Shown one piece after another: positions 11,895-22,438 of a stretch of 42,637 bases of DNA. Under the pieces are notes generated by a model. That model saw nothing but the letters and a program-made list of their open reading frames with translations, searched no databases and was not told the origin of the DNA. Within the stretch, counting starts at the first letter, position 1. Every line of letters begins with the position of its first letter. Made by a program: the position numbers and the translations under genes. Source of the DNA: Bacteroidota bacterium (GTDB lineage Bacteria; Bacteroidota; Ignavibacteria; Palsa-1295); the NCBI GenBank assembly GCA_030706385.1, contig JAUZOQ010000022.1, forward strand, positions 1 through 42,637. Direction: 5' to 3'.

Positions 11895-14800
11895 TTACTT
11901 CGTCACTTCCAGCTTCTGCGTCATTACGCCGTTTGCTGAGGTTACGCGGATGTAGTAGATTCCTTCGTGCAAGCTGCGCAAAGGGATCTCGATCTTGGAT
12001 ATTCCCGTAGGAATCGGACCTTTCGAGATCTCTCTTCCGAGGATATCGATAATGGCTAGCGTTGCCATTCCTTGAAGAGGTTCGGAGAAATAACAGACTG
12101 CAGAATTTCCTGAGGCCGGGTTCGGACGGATCGATAGCGTTTGCGCTGCGATCTTCGAAGAATGGACGGATTCGATGATCTCCGGAATTCCCGTTCCGCT
12201 TATGATCGAATAATCCTTGATCGTATGCATAAACTGCGGCTCGAGATCGGTGCTCCAATCGATACGTCCGCTATCCCTTCCTACTGCTCGCGGATGGAAA
12301 CAGACTCCGAGCGAAAAACTCTTTCCCGGCTGGATCAGAACCGGAAGCGAAGCCCCTGAGCGCGTATCGACGGAAAAATTTGCCGTATCCGATAGCAACC
12401 ATGATTTCTCCAGGGTGAACGGAGCCTGGCCGACATTATGGATAATAACATTCTGGCAATATTGCTTGCCCACGGTGACTGAGCCGAACTCGAGGTCTTC
12501 CGCATTAATATATCCAGTCGTCGATCCGTGTGCATCGATCGATATGCCGACAGTGAAACAATCCGATTTAACGATGAGCGAATCGCGATGACGAAGCGAA
12601 TCATTCGGTTTGTAGCAGACTCTCATCAAGAGCGAATCTCCGGCAGCAATGGCATGCGGAAGCGGCGGAGTAACCGATTGAAGCGTAAATGAAGGATCAC
12701 CTCCGTGAAGCACTGCGGAATTCAGATTGATCGCCGGACTTCCGACGGCAGCGGTATTCTTGAAGACGAACGTCGTGCAAACTTCCGATCCGATCTTCTG
12801 AACAGGAAAGACGATACTATCGGCCCTGCCGGATGTCGGAGGATTCGTCGATAACTTAAGCGGAGATGCACTCCGACTCAGGACGAGAATCGACGTATTG
12901 CCAAGATTATCGATAATGGCAAGCGGAGCCATAGCTGGAGCCAGCGGATTCGGAAGAGAAACATCGAAGCAATATGCCTGCGAGCTGTGCCAGTGCGGAT
13001 GCAACTCCCCGGCAACATAATCGGTCGAACCCGTATCGAGGCTGGTATTATTGTACTTCAATCCAACCTTGTCGAAATAGACTCCATCGGGATCGTCAAT
13101 GAGTATGACGGCTTTAATACCCGGATCGTTCTTGCCCGTATCGCGGATGCAGACATGCCATGCCGAGCAGGAATCGATCGAGACCGCAAAGTTCGGAACG
13201 ATGCCTGTATTGAGTTGCATGCCGCCCGTTGTTGCAAATTCCGTTTCGTAGGTCCAGTAATAACTTCCGCCGAATCCCCATGGCTCAAGCTGATTCATGC
13301 CGTAGACATAAGCGATAAAGGGATAATCCGAATGCAGGTAATACGATCCGGCACCGATACGGTACTGCGCGCCTTTGAGTGAGTATTGCTTCGATACGGA
13401 AGCATACGTCTTCATGTTTGTCACGTTGCCGACAAGGTTCTTTTCCGGACCGCCATCGACGGAGACCTTGATGTCATTCAGGCTATCGGAAATGATATTC
13501 ATGAACTGGTTATCCGTCACTCCGAAGATCTGTGCAGGAAGTTGCACGGAGAAATTATATTCTTTTCTCCAGCGGGATTTGGGTACAACCGTAACCATGC
13601 TCGGAGCAGGCGTGGGGCTCTTATCGGTCTGGCTGCGCTCATCGTATTGCATTACGCTGATCTTCTTCCCGTTCGTCGTGTAGATATCGACGGGATCGGT
13701 AATATCGAACTTCTGAGGCGGCGTGCTAAGCCGCGATGTTGCCATGGAGTATCCGCCCGATATTCCGAGCACGTCCATCTGCGCTCGTGCAGCTACGGTA
13801 TCGTAGGTATAGACGCGATAACTATCGCCATGCCCTTCTGTTCCGGGAGTTGAAGCCTCGACGAGCGGGATCGAAAGATATCCGACCGAATCCCAAAATT
13901 CCACCGGAGTCATTTGCTCGATCATGAAGTCGCGAGCTTCCATCGTATACGGATCGACTCCTCCGAGGCCGGCATCTTCATGTCCGGCGATCACGACGAT
14001 CGGTTTCGAAGCAGTGACGATCGAACCGGAAATATCGGCGCTCGGATCTAATCCGTTCGAACGAACAAGATAGCATTCACCTTTTCCGAGAGAGATGGTA
14101 TATGGGTGAGCCGCTCCTGTTGCTCCTGCTCCAGTCCGGACGCCTGTGTGTCCGCCCGTCGTTGTTGTGGTCGGAATGATCGTCACACCGGTCTGCCCTT
14201 CCGTACCGATGATGAGGAATTGGCCGCCGGCCGGATCGAAATCTTTCGGATAGTAGTAGCCGCCATAAATTCCGCCATAAAGTGCGCCATCGCCGGCGTT
14301 ATCGTTGTAACTGGAAATGACGTAGTTCTTTCCGAGTGCAAGCGCCGGAAGCGCTAAGTAACTGCCTCCGCAGTTGACGCCTGAACTCAAGTATTGCACG
14401 CTTACTGGATACTTCGATGTGATATGGCAGGATTTGAATGCCGATGCTTCGGCGGATGTATCCATTTGCATCGCTGCAACATTCAAAGAAATTTGCAAAG
14501 AGCGGCGTGCGGGGACTTTATATGGGATCTTATTCACTTCCTCTCCGCCTGTCGTGAAGTAGGAGACCGTAACATCGTTATCGTAATACGTCGTGATGAT
14601 AGCCATTGCAGCGAATGTTCCGCTTGCTTTGCCGATGGCAACATAGTTGTAGCTGGGATAGAGCATTCCCAGGAAAAATTCGCGGCCTTCGTTCGTCATG
14701 CCGCCATGCGGCAAGTAAACGGCAGTAATGCTGCCTGTCATGCCGATCGGAGCATAGATTTTATTCTGGTAATTATATGTCCCTCCTACACCGGCAATGT

Positions 14801-15077
14801 AACTAAAACTTGTGCCTGAGTTTACGGGACCCAAAGGTTTCGCGCCGGGTGGCAGAGAGACAGATTCAAGAGGATAAGTAGTGAAGTCGCCTTTCCATAC
14901 GATCGTATCGCCAACCTCAACGGTTAACGTTTTCGGTGAATAGCCATAGCCATATGTCCCGCCAAAATTAACGGTATGAGAAGTCAGTCCGTATCCTGGA
15001 ATGCCGAGAACAGAGAAAGCTAAGAATACGGAAACAGCTATGAAGTCACGGAGCCTCTTATCTATCGGAATCAACAT
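11895..15077 (-). CDS. giant T9SS-exported protein: cupredoxin-like + IgGFc-binding-like + choice-of-anchor domains (paralogue B1)
   Basis: The 1,060-residue product starts with a signal peptide (about 1-31). Residues ~33-118 form a cupredoxin-like domain (LTVEVGDTIVW ... YNYQNKIYAPIGMTGSI). The positions of the copper Cys and His are taken by Asn105 and Tyr108; only the GM motif remains. Residues ~125-420 resemble the IgGFc-binding N-terminal domain (NEGREFFLGML, HITSKYPVSVQYLSSG, LPALALGKNYVISSYN, SKPIVVIAGHEDA). Residues ~770-965 hold two choice-of-anchor/ASPM-like beta domains (DLEFGSVTVGKQYC). The end (RPNPASGNS ... MTQKLEVTK) is a type A T9SS sorting domain. It is surface-exposed or secreted, probably adhesive. 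The paralogue at 19194 has the same layout. Exact function is unknown. Confidence 0.9.
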   Translation of the reverse strand: MLIPIDKRLRDFIAVSVFLAFSVLGIPGYGLTSHTVNFGGTYGYGYSPKTLTVEVGDTIVWKGDFTTYPLESVSLPPGAKPLGPVNSGTSFSYIAGVGGTYNYQNKIYAPIGMTGSITAVYLPHGGMTNEGREFFLGMLYPSYNYVAIGKASGTFAAMAIITTYYDNDVTVSYFTTGGEEVNKIPYKVPARRSLQISLNVAAMQMDTSAEASAFKSCHITSKYPVSVQYLSSGVNCGGSYLALPALALGKNYVISSYNDNAGDGALYGGIYGGYYYPKDFDPAGGQFLIIGTEGQTGVTIIPTTTTTGGHTGVRTGAGATGAAHPYTISLGKGECYLVRSNGLDPSADISGSIVTASKPIVVIAGHEDAGLGGVDPYTMEARDFMIEQMTPVEFWDSVGYLSIPLVEASTPGTEGHGDSYRVYTYDTVAARAQMDVLGISGGYSMATSRLSTPPQKFDITDPVDIYTTNGKKISVMQYDERSQTDKSPTPAPSMVTVVPKSRWRKEYNFSVQLPAQIFGVTDNQFMNIISDSLNDIKVSVDGGPEKNLVGNVTNMKTYASVSKQYSLKGAQYRIGAGSYYLHSDYPFIAYVYGMNQLEPWGFGGSYYWTYETEFATTGGMQLNTGIVPNFAVSIDSCSAWHVCIRDTGKNDPGIKAVILIDDPDGVYFDKVGLKYNNTSLDTGSTDYVAGELHPHWHSSQAYCFDVSLPNPLAPAMAPLAIIDNLGNTSILVLSRSASPLKLSTNPPTSGRADSIVFPVQKIGSEVCTTFVFKNTAAVGSPAINLNSAVLHGGDPSFTLQSVTPPLPHAIAAGDSLLMRVCYKPNDSLRHRDSLIVKSDCFTVGISIDAHGSTTGYINAEDLEFGSVTVGKQYCQNVIIHNVGQAPFTLEKSWLLSDTANFSVDTRSGASLPVLIQPGKSFSLGVCFHPRAVGRDSGRIDWSTDLEPQFMHTIKDYSIISGTGIPEIIESVHSSKIAAQTLSIRPNPASGNSAVCYFSEPLQGMATLAIIDILGREISKGPIPTGISKIEIPLRSLHEGIYYIRVTSANGVMTQKLEVTK

Positions 15078-16753: not shown

Positions 16754-18130
16754 TTATTGACTTCCTATGACTTCAAATTTTCCTTCACGCAGTACTTTTC
16801 CCTTGTCGTAAAGAAAGATATTATAATAGCCACGTGGAAGTTTACGAGTGTCGAAAGTCAACTTTCCAGCATTTGACAATTCACCTTGCAATACTTGTCT
16901 GCCAAGCACATCAAAGACACGTGCACTTTCATTACCGATAGTTGAGGCTATCGTAACTTCATTTGTTGCCGGGTTGGGAAATATTCTCATTCGCTCGATC
17001 TCACCGGGAGCAGTCACGCTCAACTTAACATTCTGACCTTTGACTAAAACCCCCGGAAAACTCAAACCACCAGGGATTCCCCGACCGGGGAGTTCGGGGT
17101 AAACTCCGACGAATCCGCCATCACCAACAGCTTCCAAACCAAAACAGTAAACTAAATGGTAATCCGTATCAAGCACCAGAGAGTCATCCCTCCATGATGA
17201 GCCACGGTCAGAGCTGAAAAGGATATGGTTGAGACTTCCTCCGGCAGCAAGGACGGTATCCCGAGAAAGTGAAGTCATAAAACGAAGGTATGTGAATGAC
17301 GGGAAAAGCATGGGTTGCTCCCAGGTCGAACCATTGTTTACCGATCGCATTAGGACACCTCCACCTCCATTTGGGTTAAACTGATTTCCGCAGACAAAGA
17401 TGGTATCTCCATCGGTATACTTGCAATAGCTAATGTAATATCCACTTTTCCGAGCGGTAGAATCCAAGATTGGACTTGTCGAATCTACGGTAAGCCAATT
17501 ATCTCTCGTCCTGTAGAATCGTCCCTGACCAATATCAAATACACTGTAATCTCCAGGCCCGTAGCAATGGCACTGAACAATGTTCGCTGAACTGAATGCT
17601 GATGTCCTCCATTGCCTTCCGCCATCAGAAGTTGTATAAATATTTGCAGAAGTATCACTTGATATAACGATGCCGGAATAAGGATTGGCAAAATGAACAT
17701 TCCTTAGAAATGCCGAACTGTTGCACTGCTGCCTCTCCCAGGAGATTCCTCCATCGAATGTGCGGAGGATCAGACCCGTGTCTCCGACTGCGATAATATT
17801 TTGTGCATCAATCTGTTGGATCGCAATACACTGGTTTTGGTTGTCACCAAGTTCAAATGGAAGCTCCGGATCCTGAATTTCCCATGTGCTACCTCCATCG
17901 TCACTACGCCAGAAAATAATGCGCACTTTGTCCGTTAGGGCATCGCGGATTAAGCCCGTCGCTGTACAATCCTCTCCATTGCACGAAACGGCATTAAAAG
18001 TATAACTAAATCTCCAATCCGAAGCTAGATGAGTTATCTGCCATGACAACTGTGCTCTCGCGCCGAGTGTGCAGAACATCGGCGCGAGAGTAATGAATAT
18101 AATTACAAGTTTAATATTGATCTTTACCAT
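16754..18130 (-). CDS. T9SS-exported Asp-box/Ycf48-like beta-propeller protein (paralogue A3)
   Basis: The ATG at 18128-18130 overlaps the stop codon of the upstream Cys-rich gene (TAATG), which together with the signal peptide (MVKINIKLVIIFITLAP...ARAQ) fixes the start and gives 458 residues. The longer in-frame ATG at 18205 would lie inside the upstream gene. Asp-box motifs are SDDGGSTWE, TFDGGISWE, TSDGGRQWR, SVNNGSTWE and SSDRGSSWR. The tail (IFPNPATNEVTIAS ... VLGRQVLQ ... LPRGYYNIFLYDKGK) is a type A T9SS sorting domain. The overlap suggests translational coupling to the Cys-rich protein. It is closest in layout to the gene at 15310 just downstream; the two look like a tandem duplication. 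Confidence 0.9.
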   Translation of the reverse strand: MVKINIKLVIIFITLAPMFCTLGARAQLSWQITHLASDWRFSYTFNAVSCNGEDCTATGLIRDALTDKVRIIFWRSDDGGSTWEIQDPELPFELGDNQNQCIAIQQIDAQNIIAVGDTGLILRTFDGGISWERQQCNSSAFLRNVHFANPYSGIVISSDTSANIYTTSDGGRQWRTSAFSSANIVQCHCYGPGDYSVFDIGQGRFYRTRDNWLTVDSTSPILDSTARKSGYYISYCKYTDGDTIFVCGNQFNPNGGGGVLMRSVNNGSTWEQPMLFPSFTYLRFMTSLSRDTVLAAGGSLNHILFSSDRGSSWRDDSLVLDTDYHLVYCFGLEAVGDGGFVGVYPELPGRGIPGGLSFPGVLVKGQNVKLSVTAPGEIERMRIFPNPATNEVTIASTIGNESARVFDVLGRQVLQGELSNAGKLTFDTRKLPRGYYNIFLYDKGKVLREGKFEVIGSQ

Positions 18131-18759
18131 TATTCGCAGGAAACCTGGAATCCCCCGGTAGGGCATGATGAGCAATCCGGCGTGCCTATCGTAGAAAAAG
18201 AACAATCAGTAGCCGTTACAACACCACTACTGTAGCATAGTTGGCAAGTCTCCTCACAATAACTGCTACTGCTTCCGCAAGGTTCGAGTGCAGTCCCCCC
18301 TCCTTCCAAGGTAGTCGAAAAATAACAACTTGATAGATATACATTCCCTGTAATGCGATCAGTTGTCGTACAGTCTGGTAGAGAGCCTCCAATTACATCC
18401 CAAATATGTTGTTTGGCATCGCTAAACAGTTCCGAGGCAGTAAGACAATCACAAGCTCCAGAAGCTCCTGGATTCTTGTCTATTTGTTGAATATAGACTT
18501 CAAGAGTGTATTGAGAAGCAGGTGGAGGGTTGGATATGTAACGATAGCAATAGTGTACAGTTATTGAACAGTAGCTCACACCACCACAGGATCTGGTCCA
18601 AGTAATATTTGTGCCATGCGACCATGGCACCCCAGTTGGAGGAATATTGCTAGGACAGGCTGGCTGAGCCTTTAGCGCTGATCCAAGTAAACAAGAATAG
18701 AATAGTCCGAGCAGTATTGTTCGAGTAGCTTTGAGTAAAGATTGATTAGTAGGTTTCAT
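18130..18759 (-). CDS. cysteine-rich secreted protein of unknown function
   Basis: This 209-residue protein has a signal peptide (about residues 1-32, ending SALKAQ). The mature part contains 16 cysteines, an even number, with clustered pairs such as CDC, CEETCQLC and CSSC. Disulfide-rich folding outside the cytoplasm is likely. There is no T9SS sorting tail, so it may stay in the periplasm, be secreted another way, or act with its operon partners. I recognise no family. Its stop overlaps the start of the T9SS propeller gene at 16754-18130 (TAATG), pointing to coupled translation. It is the first gene of the operon and follows a ~330-nt structured leader. Confidence 0.8.
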   Translation of the reverse strand: MKPTNQSLLKATRTILLGLFYSCLLGSALKAQPACPSNIPPTGVPWSHGTNITWTRSCGGVSYCSITVHYCYRYISNPPPASQYTLEVYIQQIDKNPGASGACDCLTASELFSDAKQHIWDVIGGSLPDCTTTDRITGNVYLSSCYFSTTLEGGGTALEPCGSSSSYCEETCQLCYSSGVVTATDCSFSTIGTPDCSSCPTGGFQVSCE

Positions 18760-19193: not shown

Positions 19194-22100
19194 CTATCTC
19201 ACAACCTGCAACTTCTCCGTCAGTACTCCATGGCCGGAGGTGAGACGGACGTAGTAAAGTCCTTCAGTAAGCGTGCGAAGAGGGAGTTCGATCTCTGCTA
19301 AGCCAGCAGGGATATCTTCCTTGATTATTTCTCTTCCAAGCACATCGAAAAGCGATAGAGTTGAAGAACTTTGAAGAGGTTCTCCGAAATCGCAGATCGC
19401 AGAAGTGCCCGATGCAGGATTCGGGCGAATGGAGAATGACGATGGAGCCGAAGGCTCGTGTACCGATTTCACGATAACGGGTGTTGCCGTTCCGCTGAGA
19501 AGCGAGTAGTGCTTATAGCTATCGGCATAAATAGAATCGATGTTCGTCGACCAATCGATCCGTGCGCTATCTTTCCCGACAACGGTCGGATGGAAGCAGA
19601 GCTTGATCGCAGTGCTCTTCGATGGAAGAATCGTAACAGGTAGGAGTGCGGCAGAAAGAGAATCGACGGAGAAATTCACCGTATCGGAAAGGATCCACGA
19701 ACGCGTTAATGTGAACGGCGCAAGTCCGGCATTATGGATCAGAAGCGTCTTGCAAATTTCGGTGCCAACAGTTATTGAGCCGAAATCCAAGTTATCGGCA
19801 TTGATAAGTCCGGTCTCGCTATGAGCATCGAGGAAGATCGTAACATCGAAGCAGCCTGTCGTGACGATAAGCGAATCCCTGTGGCGAAGCGAATCTTCCG
19901 AACTGTAGCATACTTCCACTTTGAACGAATCCTGTGCGCCGACTCCGTATGGAAGTGCGGGCCTGATCGAATCGATCGTGAACGCCGGATCCCCTTTCCT
20001 CAGCTTCACTGAGAGAAAATCGATCGGAGTGCTTCCGGCAGCTGCAGTATTCTTAAAGACAAATGTCGTACAGATCCGGCTGCCGACGTTTTGCTGAGGG
20101 AAGAAAATGCTATCGGGATGCGGAGAAGCGATAGGGCTCGACTTCAAAGAGAATTCCGGCGCGCTGCGCTTAAGCTGCACGATGATTCCGTTGCCGTTAT
20201 TATCGATGATGCCGATCGGTGCTGAAGCCGATGCCTGGCGATTCGTGATCTTAATGCTGAAGCAGTAAGCTTGTGAGGAATGCCAGTGCGGCATGAGTTC
20301 GCCGCGGTAAAGATCGGTGGAAGATGAATCGAATGTTACGTTATGGTATTTCGCACCAATCCTATCGTAATACACACCATCGGAATCATCGATAAGCGAA
20401 ACAACGCGAACGCCGGGATCGCCTTTGCTCGTATCGCGTACGCAGATATTCCAACCTGCACAGTTTGGCAAGGTATCGATGAAAACAACAAATGAAGGAG
20501 TTGCGCCTGTATTGAGTTGCATTCCAGCCGGCGCAGCAGATTCGGACTCGAATTGTTCGTACACCTTATCGCCGAAATACCAGTACTCATTCATTCCGTA
20601 TGAATACACGGCGAAAGGATAATCCGAATGCAGATAGAACGGGCCGGAGCCGATACGGTAACGCGCACCTTTAATGTTCGGATAATTTTTCGAGACAACG
20701 TTTACAGTGCCGACATTTGCCAGAGCTGTGGTGATCGTATGCTCAACACCTCCGTTAGCCGAGACCATGATCGTCTGAAGGCTATCGGCGATAACATCGA
20801 GGAATTGATCGCCGACTACTCCGTGATCGGTCGGTGGAATCAACACAGAGAAATTGTAGGCCTTGCGCCAACGTGCATGCGGCACGATCGTCATCATGCC
20901 CGGAGCGCAGTACGGTTTATTCGTCGGCTGCGTGCGCTCGTCATATTGCATGACGTTAAACTTCCGGCCATTCGTCGAATAAATATCGACGGGTGCCGTA
21001 ATATCGAATTTTTCGGGTGTGGGCGAGGCGAGCCGCGATGTATTCATCGTGTATCCTCCGCCGATTCCGATCACATCGGCCTGCACCTTTACCGGAAGGG
21101 TATCGAACGCATAGACACGATAGTTATCTCCGTGGCCTTCGAGTGAGGCAGGAGTCCCTTCGATAAATGGGATTGAGAGATAGCCCGTCGTATCCCAGAC
21201 TTCAACGGGCGTCATTTCTTCGATCATGAAATCGCGGGCATCGAGCAATGCTCCGGCAACTCCGCCGATCGTCGCATCCTCCGCTCCGGCAAGAACAACG
21301 ACAGGCTTCGATGCTTCGACCAGAGAGCCCGACATATCCTGGCTTGCATCCTTGCCGCTCGAGCGGACTAGGTAACACTGACCGCGCGCGAGCCCCGCAG
21401 AGAACGGCACGACTTTGTTCTTCGCACCGGGGCCGGTATGAACGCCAACGTGGCCGCCAGTAGTTGTCGAGTTCGGAGTGATCTTTACCGAAGTATTATC
21501 TTCCGTTGCGATTACCATGAAAAGTCCTCCTGCCACATCAATATTTGCCGGATAGCCCATCGATGTTCCCGATAACGCTCCGTTGCCCGCATCATCGTTG
21601 TAACTGGCAACGACGTAATTCTTCCCTAAAGCCTGAACAGGTAACGCAAGATAGCTACCGCCGGAATTCGCTCCTACCGAAACGCATTGAACGGTTATCG
21701 GATATTTCGAAGTGATATGATATGACCTGGGAAGCGGAATCTCCGGGAAGGAATCCATCCGCATGTTCGATGTGACCAATTGAATTTGCAATGTTCCGCG
21801 AGCCGGAACTTGCAGCATCGTCGGAAATACTTCGAGGCCGTTTGCATCGAAATAGGAAACATTTACCGTATTGGCATAATACGATGTGATAAGTGCGTAG
21901 ACTTTGTAATAAGGAGCTGTCTGCATTTGCACGACATTATTGAACGTCGGGTAGAGCAATCCCAGATAGAACTCACGTCCTTCATTGGTCAGGCTTCCAT
22001 GAGGCAGTCGGATGCCGCTAAAACTCCCTTTCATTCCGAGCGAGGCATAGATCTTATTCTGATATGCATAATTGCCAGGGACATCAACAACGTAGGTGAA

Positions 22101-22361
22101 GGTTGTGCCAGAGTTTATCGGACCGAACGGCAATGCTCCGGTAGGAACGGATGTCGATACGAGAGGATAGGTTGCGAAGTCGCCGCGGAAAACTATCGTA
22201 TCGCCGACTTCGACCGTCAGCGCGTTCGGTACGTAATTATAACCATGCCCTCCTCCGAAATCAACATAATATAGCGTCGGAAGAGCAGCAAATGATGTGT
22301 TTGCTGAAATAAAAAAAATAAGGGATACAAAAACAAAGGAAAGCGATTTCAAACGGATCAT
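19194..22361 (-). CDS. giant T9SS-exported protein: cupredoxin-like + IgGFc-binding-like + choice-of-anchor domains (paralogue B2)
   Basis: I use the ATG at 22359-22361 because it begins a good signal peptide (MIRLKSLSFVFVSLIFF...SFAA), giving 1,055 residues; an in-frame ATG at 22412 adds 17 unlikely residues. Domain order equals that of the 11895-15077 gene: a cupredoxin-like domain (LTVEVGDTIVF ... YAYQNKIYASLGMKGSF, again without copper Cys and His), an IgGFc-binding-like region (NEGREFYLGLL, HITSKYPITVQ, SKPVVVLAGAEDA), two choice-of-anchor domains (NLDFGSITVGTEIC) and a type A T9SS sorting domain (RPNPASGTS ... GLYYVRLTSG). It should be exported through the outer membrane. A terminator follows its stop. 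It sits ~90 bp downstream of murA on the same strand. Confidence 0.9.
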   Translation of the reverse strand: MIRLKSLSFVFVSLIFFISANTSFAALPTLYYVDFGGGHGYNYVPNALTVEVGDTIVFRGDFATYPLVSTSVPTGALPFGPINSGTTFTYVVDVPGNYAYQNKIYASLGMKGSFSGIRLPHGSLTNEGREFYLGLLYPTFNNVVQMQTAPYYKVYALITSYYANTVNVSYFDANGLEVFPTMLQVPARGTLQIQLVTSNMRMDSFPEIPLPRSYHITSKYPITVQCVSVGANSGGSYLALPVQALGKNYVVASYNDDAGNGALSGTSMGYPANIDVAGGLFMVIATEDNTSVKITPNSTTTGGHVGVHTGPGAKNKVVPFSAGLARGQCYLVRSSGKDASQDMSGSLVEASKPVVVLAGAEDATIGGVAGALLDARDFMIEEMTPVEVWDTTGYLSIPFIEGTPASLEGHGDNYRVYAFDTLPVKVQADVIGIGGGYTMNTSRLASPTPEKFDITAPVDIYSTNGRKFNVMQYDERTQPTNKPYCAPGMMTIVPHARWRKAYNFSVLIPPTDHGVVGDQFLDVIADSLQTIMVSANGGVEHTITTALANVGTVNVVSKNYPNIKGARYRIGSGPFYLHSDYPFAVYSYGMNEYWYFGDKVYEQFESESAAPAGMQLNTGATPSFVVFIDTLPNCAGWNICVRDTSKGDPGVRVVSLIDDSDGVYYDRIGAKYHNVTFDSSSTDLYRGELMPHWHSSQAYCFSIKITNRQASASAPIGIIDNNGNGIIVQLKRSAPEFSLKSSPIASPHPDSIFFPQQNVGSRICTTFVFKNTAAAGSTPIDFLSVKLRKGDPAFTIDSIRPALPYGVGAQDSFKVEVCYSSEDSLRHRDSLIVTTGCFDVTIFLDAHSETGLINADNLDFGSITVGTEICKTLLIHNAGLAPFTLTRSWILSDTVNFSVDSLSAALLPVTILPSKSTAIKLCFHPTVVGKDSARIDWSTNIDSIYADSYKHYSLLSGTATPVIVKSVHEPSAPSSFSIRPNPASGTSAICDFGEPLQSSSTLSLFDVLGREIIKEDIPAGLAEIELPLRTLTEGLYYVRLTSGHGVLTEKLQVVR

Positions 22362-22438
22362 CCGGCCTGCTGTGAAACGGTGTGCATAGTGATCAAGAAA
22401 CAAACACGACAACTCAAGAAAAACTACAATATTGCCTA

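Follow-up and report, generated by a model that had tools for sequence, protein, structure and literature searches.

The window analyzed here, a stretch of 42,637 nucleotides from a member of the Bacteroidota, carries on its reverse strand an intact open frame that spans 19194–22412 when counted from a TTG and encodes 1,055 residues from the ATG at 22361 (protein A, Table 1). We preferred this ATG, also the choice of the initial annotation, as the start because a textbook signal peptide, recognized by eye, then lies at the N-terminus. The initial annotation had described the gene as a "giant" T9SS protein combining cupredoxin, IgGFc-binding-like and choice-of-anchor parts. "Giant" is overstated for 1,055 residues, and the order of cupredoxin, IgGFc-binding-like region, Ig domains and T9SS tail was confirmed by profiles and an AlphaFold2 model. 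The IgGFc_binding model (PF17517) matched A with 111.1 bits against a gathering cut-off of 25.6, with a second score of 120.9 bits against the same cut-off, and the sorting tail was recognized by Por_Secre_tail (PF18962, 36.8 bits, cut-off 27) and TIGR04183 (33.1 bits, cut-off 23). The choice-of-anchor label was right as to the presence of ASH/HYDIN-type Ig domains (HYDIN/ASH Ig, 31.6 bits, cut-off 25.5), but the choice_anch_D model itself (NF012200, cut-off 45) remained below threshold in A with 31.3 bits and passed it in paralogue B with 50.3 bits. The same genome encodes SprA (TIGR04189, 775 bits with the neighbours in frame, cut-off 200). With a sorting tail over the cut-off and this translocon in its genome, A is a predicted T9SS type A cargo protein, and the predicted secretion route is supported by its domains and by SprA. 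A phmmer search of PDB sequences with A gave nothing below E 0.05, a scan of genome contigs with A alone as query found no relative, and neither viral contigs nor, across the window, Rfam gave a match; promoter and terminator scans performed no better than shuffled sequences.

Table 1. Genes and predicted features of the locus (positions in the window; residues refer to protein A)
Feature	Position	Strand	Basis or remark
Protein A, T9SS-type surface protein of 1,055 aa	19194..22361	-	ATG 22361, stop at 19194
Signal peptide, ~residues 1-26	22284..22361	-	Sequence read by eye
Copper-dead cupredoxin domain, residues 26-122	21996..22286	-	Alignment, profile, structural match
Ex-ligand positions Tyr65, Asn102, Tyr105, Met110	Codon starts 22169, 22058, 22049, 22034	-	
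IgGFc_binding-type region, residues 123-600	20562..21995	-	Pfam and model
Linker domain "mid", no name, beta, residues 601-745	20127..20561	-	Model
Two ASH/HYDIN/choice-of-anchor-like Ig domains, residues 746-960	19482..20126	-	Profiles
T9SS type A sorting tail, residues 966-1055	19197..19466	-	Profiles
Cys-rich protein P0001, 209 aa, ~17 cysteines	18130..18759	-	Signal-peptide-like N-terminus; between A and P3
Propeller P3 (BNR/YCF48-like, T9SS tail)	16754..18130	-	ATG at 18130
Propeller P2	15310..16716	-	In tandem behind P3
Paralogue B, 1,060 aa, architecture as A	11895..15077	-	54% identical to A over the full length
Propeller P1	10426..11829	-	T9SS tail nearer to A/B tails than to P2/P3 tails

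In the direction of transcription, A is followed by the Cys-rich ORF, P3, P2, B and P1. The full paralogue announced by the initial annotation is indeed present nearby, and three propellers on the same strand are interleaved with the pair as described, although the Cys-rich gene between A and P3 had been overlooked. The T9SS tail of P1 reached local scores of 172–176 against the tails of A and B vs. 64–69 against those of P2 and P3, a kinship which suggests that sorting tails may have been swapped between neighbours.

In neither A nor B was the cupredoxin part matched by a Pfam model. A profile built from 15 relatives matched plastocyanin and pseudoazurin (plastocyanin 1bxu, E 4e-8), and an AlphaFold2 model of 724 residues, computed without metal (mean pLDDT 89.6, pTM 0.86), aligned with plastocyanin 2plt at Z 13.1 and rmsd 1.8 over 87 residues. 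The domain therefore has its fold and detectable sequence kinship in common with the blue copper proteins (plastocyanin, pseudoazurin, halocyanin), from which it differs in that three of the four ligands are gone in every fused copy. In the alignment of 15 cupredoxin domains, the standalone ones retain His, Cys, His and Met; in the fused ones the His-Cys-His positions hold Tyr, Asn and then Tyr, Trp or Asn, and Met is retained. Among 65 distinct domains, taken from about 105 matches with the remainder left out, the upstream His together with Cys-His-Met was found in 0 of 10 fused vs. 52 of 55 non-fused domains, the three non-fused exceptions being divergent domains in L070, L075 and L093. Alignment thus shows loss of the copper ligands in every fused copy. 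The fused domains have the cupredoxin fold of a type 1 copper protein and lack its His-Cys-His(-Met) set, and A as a copper protein was rejected on this count. It is very improbable, in our judgment, that a metal is still bound through the Tyr/Asn/Met set in a redox or metal-storage role: Tyr and Asn are conserved in 10/10 copies and Met is kept, as would be the case for a working site, but Cys and both His are gone, and the Tyr, Trp or Asn found at the third position would be odd for a metal ligand.

Four orthologous pairs from two species gave pN of 0.18–0.25 vs. pS of 0.67–0.83 for the cupredoxin domain; as pS is saturated, these values mean strong constraint and no precise ratio. Purifying selection on the domain is shown by these substitution patterns, and a copper-dead domain so maintained has probably been taken over as a tip with a recognition or structural function and no redox role. 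A precedent exists in the early nodulin-like phytocyanins of plants, described as cupredoxin relatives unable to bind copper (PMC4499708); their lineage and architecture are unrelated, and the parallel is one of kind only. Standalone cupredoxins with T9SS tails occur in the same class, and a plasmid tblastn search with the cupredoxin gave no match. In another family of the class, two cupredoxin-like domains (L070:3-494, reverse strand, and L075:2784-3263) adjoin a 460-residue cupredoxin protein and are also without Cys and His; there the copper site was probably lost independently.

The IgGFc_binding family was present in 85 of 395 sampled genomes of the phylum, with 26 PF17517 matches in the genome studied here and 28 first-look candidates, the most among the 105 genomes listed. 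The combination of IgGFc with T9SS is common. Cupredoxin and IgGFc were joined in matches from 2 of 61 genomes, both species of one genus, so that the description of the combination as unusual stands for the cupredoxin fusion. Other IgGFc proteins of the family match from the IgGFc region onward, and most do without a cupredoxin; cupredoxin-only matches elsewhere in the 61 genomes are short proteins of about 220–270 residues. The two paralogues first reported are both at the locus, but they undercount the group, since five fused copies were found in this genome (C77 twice, C53, C154 and C72) and five in the sister species (C263, C89, C305, C31 and C64). Many IgGFc genes are found at the ends of G000 contigs or close to them (C53, C22, C101, C125, C66 and C127); this is expected if paralogues break the assembly, and IgGFc copy numbers may be underestimated. 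In a relative, six or more IgGFc_binding genes without cupredoxin stand in tandem (G002:C1:551978-570875). A literature search in one open library returned no paper on a cupredoxin–IgGFc fusion.

In the IgGFc tree, the fused proteins belong to one clade of ten (support 100/99), in which two members are without cupredoxin because their contigs end too early. The cupredoxin tree, built from 62 rows after three degenerate domains had been removed, also united the fused domains in one clade (99/93). When the ligand columns were masked, this clade was lost from the cupredoxin tree, and a single clade was not rejected (p-AU 0.44); the claim of a single origin therefore leans on the IgGFc tree. We read these trees as indicating one fusion, with the ligands lost by the base of the clade and duplication afterwards.

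The IgGFc region modelled alone gave pLDDT 87.4 and pTM 0.91. In this model, the first approximately 122 residues fold into a beta sandwich similar to TM1070/ASRT, with a best alignment to TM1070 (1nc7) at Z 10.5 and rmsd 4.2 over 102 residues and a further one to the Anabaena sensory rhodopsin transducer (2ii7) at Z 8.7 and rmsd 4.1 over 87 residues. The fold matches, but the rmsd is high and sequence support is absent: a profile search of PDB sequences with the IgGFc region did not reach 1nc7 or 2ii7 and found no solved relative, and the top Foldseek matches of the IgGFc model alone were all of low probability and high rmsd. The ASRT/ASRAH superfamily has been predicted to bind sugars (PMC2739507), and we take the likeness of the model as a lead for glycan binding, not as superfamily membership. 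By Pfam, A falls in the same family as the H domain found at the N-terminus of animal FCGBP, and bacterial proteins whose N-terminal domains are homologs of the FCGBP one have been noted (PMC9354016; PMC7350206); compared with this family, A adds a T9SS tail, an Ig stalk and a fused cupredoxin. IgG binding by A is not expected in an environmental bacterium, and "IgGFc" in PF17517 is a family name only.

Considering these results, we think it moderately likely that A is a T9SS surface protein whose copper-dead cupredoxin has become a recognition or packing module without redox function, and that it arose by fusion followed by duplication. A would be exported by Sec, translocated by the T9SS and anchored on the outer surface through its C-terminal tail, with the two Ig domains as a stalk, the IgGFc-type beta region as the body and the cupredoxin at the N-terminal far end. 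Surface display and this tip position are inferred, as is the binding of a ligand, which would probably be a glycan or the surface of a neighbouring cell. In the ancestor of the genus, a once copper-carrying cupredoxin would have joined an IgGFc gene, His-Cys-His would have changed to Tyr-Asn-aromatic after or around the fusion, and the fused gene would then have been duplicated to at least five copies. In the main rival to a recognition role, the cupredoxin would bind no ligand and act only as a folding cap or spacer for the IgGFc region. The high pTM of the AlphaFold2 model suggests that its placement relative to the adjoining domain is fixed, and the constraint on the cupredoxin resembles that on the rest of the protein; against this, the majority of IgGFc proteins in the same family manage without the domain, and the conservation extends beyond the core to the ex-copper site itself. 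We regard a cap or spacer as rather unlikely and continue with the recognition or packing module as the preferred reading.

The initial annotation had further suggested that the IgGFc proteins and the propellers form a dedicated surface module. The P1–P3 subfamily of propellers occurs in 12 of the 13 genomes of the taxonomic family, with none in G007. In the 12 genomes of the family that have IgGFc matches, a propeller starts within 15 kb of 4 of 79 IgGFc-family positions (from about 85 listed matches, second pieces of the same gene being left out), and these four are both copies of the present locus, the orthologue in the sister species and a G009 position with its propeller 14 kb away. Seven propellers are found in G012, which has no IgGFc match at the threshold used, and a general rule that links the two families was rejected on these counts. 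In G002, G006 and G008, IgGFc genes lie near lepA, and in G001 and G004 they lie near murA; no propeller of the P1–P3 subfamily was found near the lepA- or murA-side genes in G002, G004, G006 and G008. The sister orthologue of A stands beside murA and is directly followed by a propeller, so the order of A and propeller is kept in the sister species, but in the rest of the taxonomic family there is essentially no linkage between the two, and among the fused copies the present locus alone borders the propeller family. The lack of linkage elsewhere, which the initial annotation had named as counter-evidence, is therefore largely borne out. Joint action as a dedicated module is thus improbable, even with the shared strand, the interleaving, the retained adjacency, a BNR-like T9SS protein immediately upstream of the fused copy on C154 and a BNR-like ORF between IgGFc and murA in G004. 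Besides the low count of nearby propellers, the 51 BNR-type matches in this genome mean that chance neighbours are expected, and an IgGFc gene precedes 2 of 59 family propellers vs. 29 of 59 for a Cys-rich gene.

The 209-residue Cys-rich protein gave no Pfam, NCBIfam or PDB match, and the stop of its ORF overlaps the start of P3 (TAATG). Searching 61 genomes with it returned 13 matches, which we count as 12 genes because two pieces on G001:C47 belong together, and all 12 lie directly upstream of a P1–P3-family propeller on the same strand. Upstream of the 59 family propellers we found a profile-found Cys-rich ORF in 27 cases and another Cys-rich ORF in 2, the remaining neighbours being a propeller (7), an IgGFc gene (2), an edge (2) and something else or nothing (19). 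The 29/29 Cys-rich ORFs beside a propeller are not independent, as these loci were fetched for their propellers, and the unbiased figure is 12/12. Outside the family, 3 of 6 propellers, all in G025, follow Cys-rich ORFs missed by the profile. Another Cys-rich family member lies at G000:C21:7591-8154. A Cys-rich protein of G012 (L158:645-1679) has its own Por_Secre_tail (33.5 bits), and the family can therefore be T9SS cargo. From the 12/12 placement, the conserved module is Cys-rich plus propeller and not IgGFc plus propeller, and we regard it as a candidate new two-gene cassette, with putative TAATG-coupled translation at this locus. Its position between A and B at this locus may be due to chance. 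No paper on the Cys-rich/propeller pair was found in a literature search of one open library.

Taken together, and as a tentative proposal that we would place somewhat below an even chance, the locus would hold two unrecorded systems: cupredoxin-tip proteins with the copper site turned into a Tyr-Asn-aromatic-Met recognition pocket, and a two-gene T9SS cassette in which a disulfide-rich protein is translationally coupled to its own beta-propeller, exported alongside it and bound by it, the two forming an expanded and diversifying pair. The fused clade offers a clean natural experiment on how the metal of a redox domain is lost and the domain turns into something different, with a bounded group of proteins, a definite exchange of residues and a full-ligand relative in the same genome. 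Furthermore, with the Cys-rich gene an expanded T9SS propeller family gains a concrete partner candidate, in a bacterial group with poorly described surface proteins.
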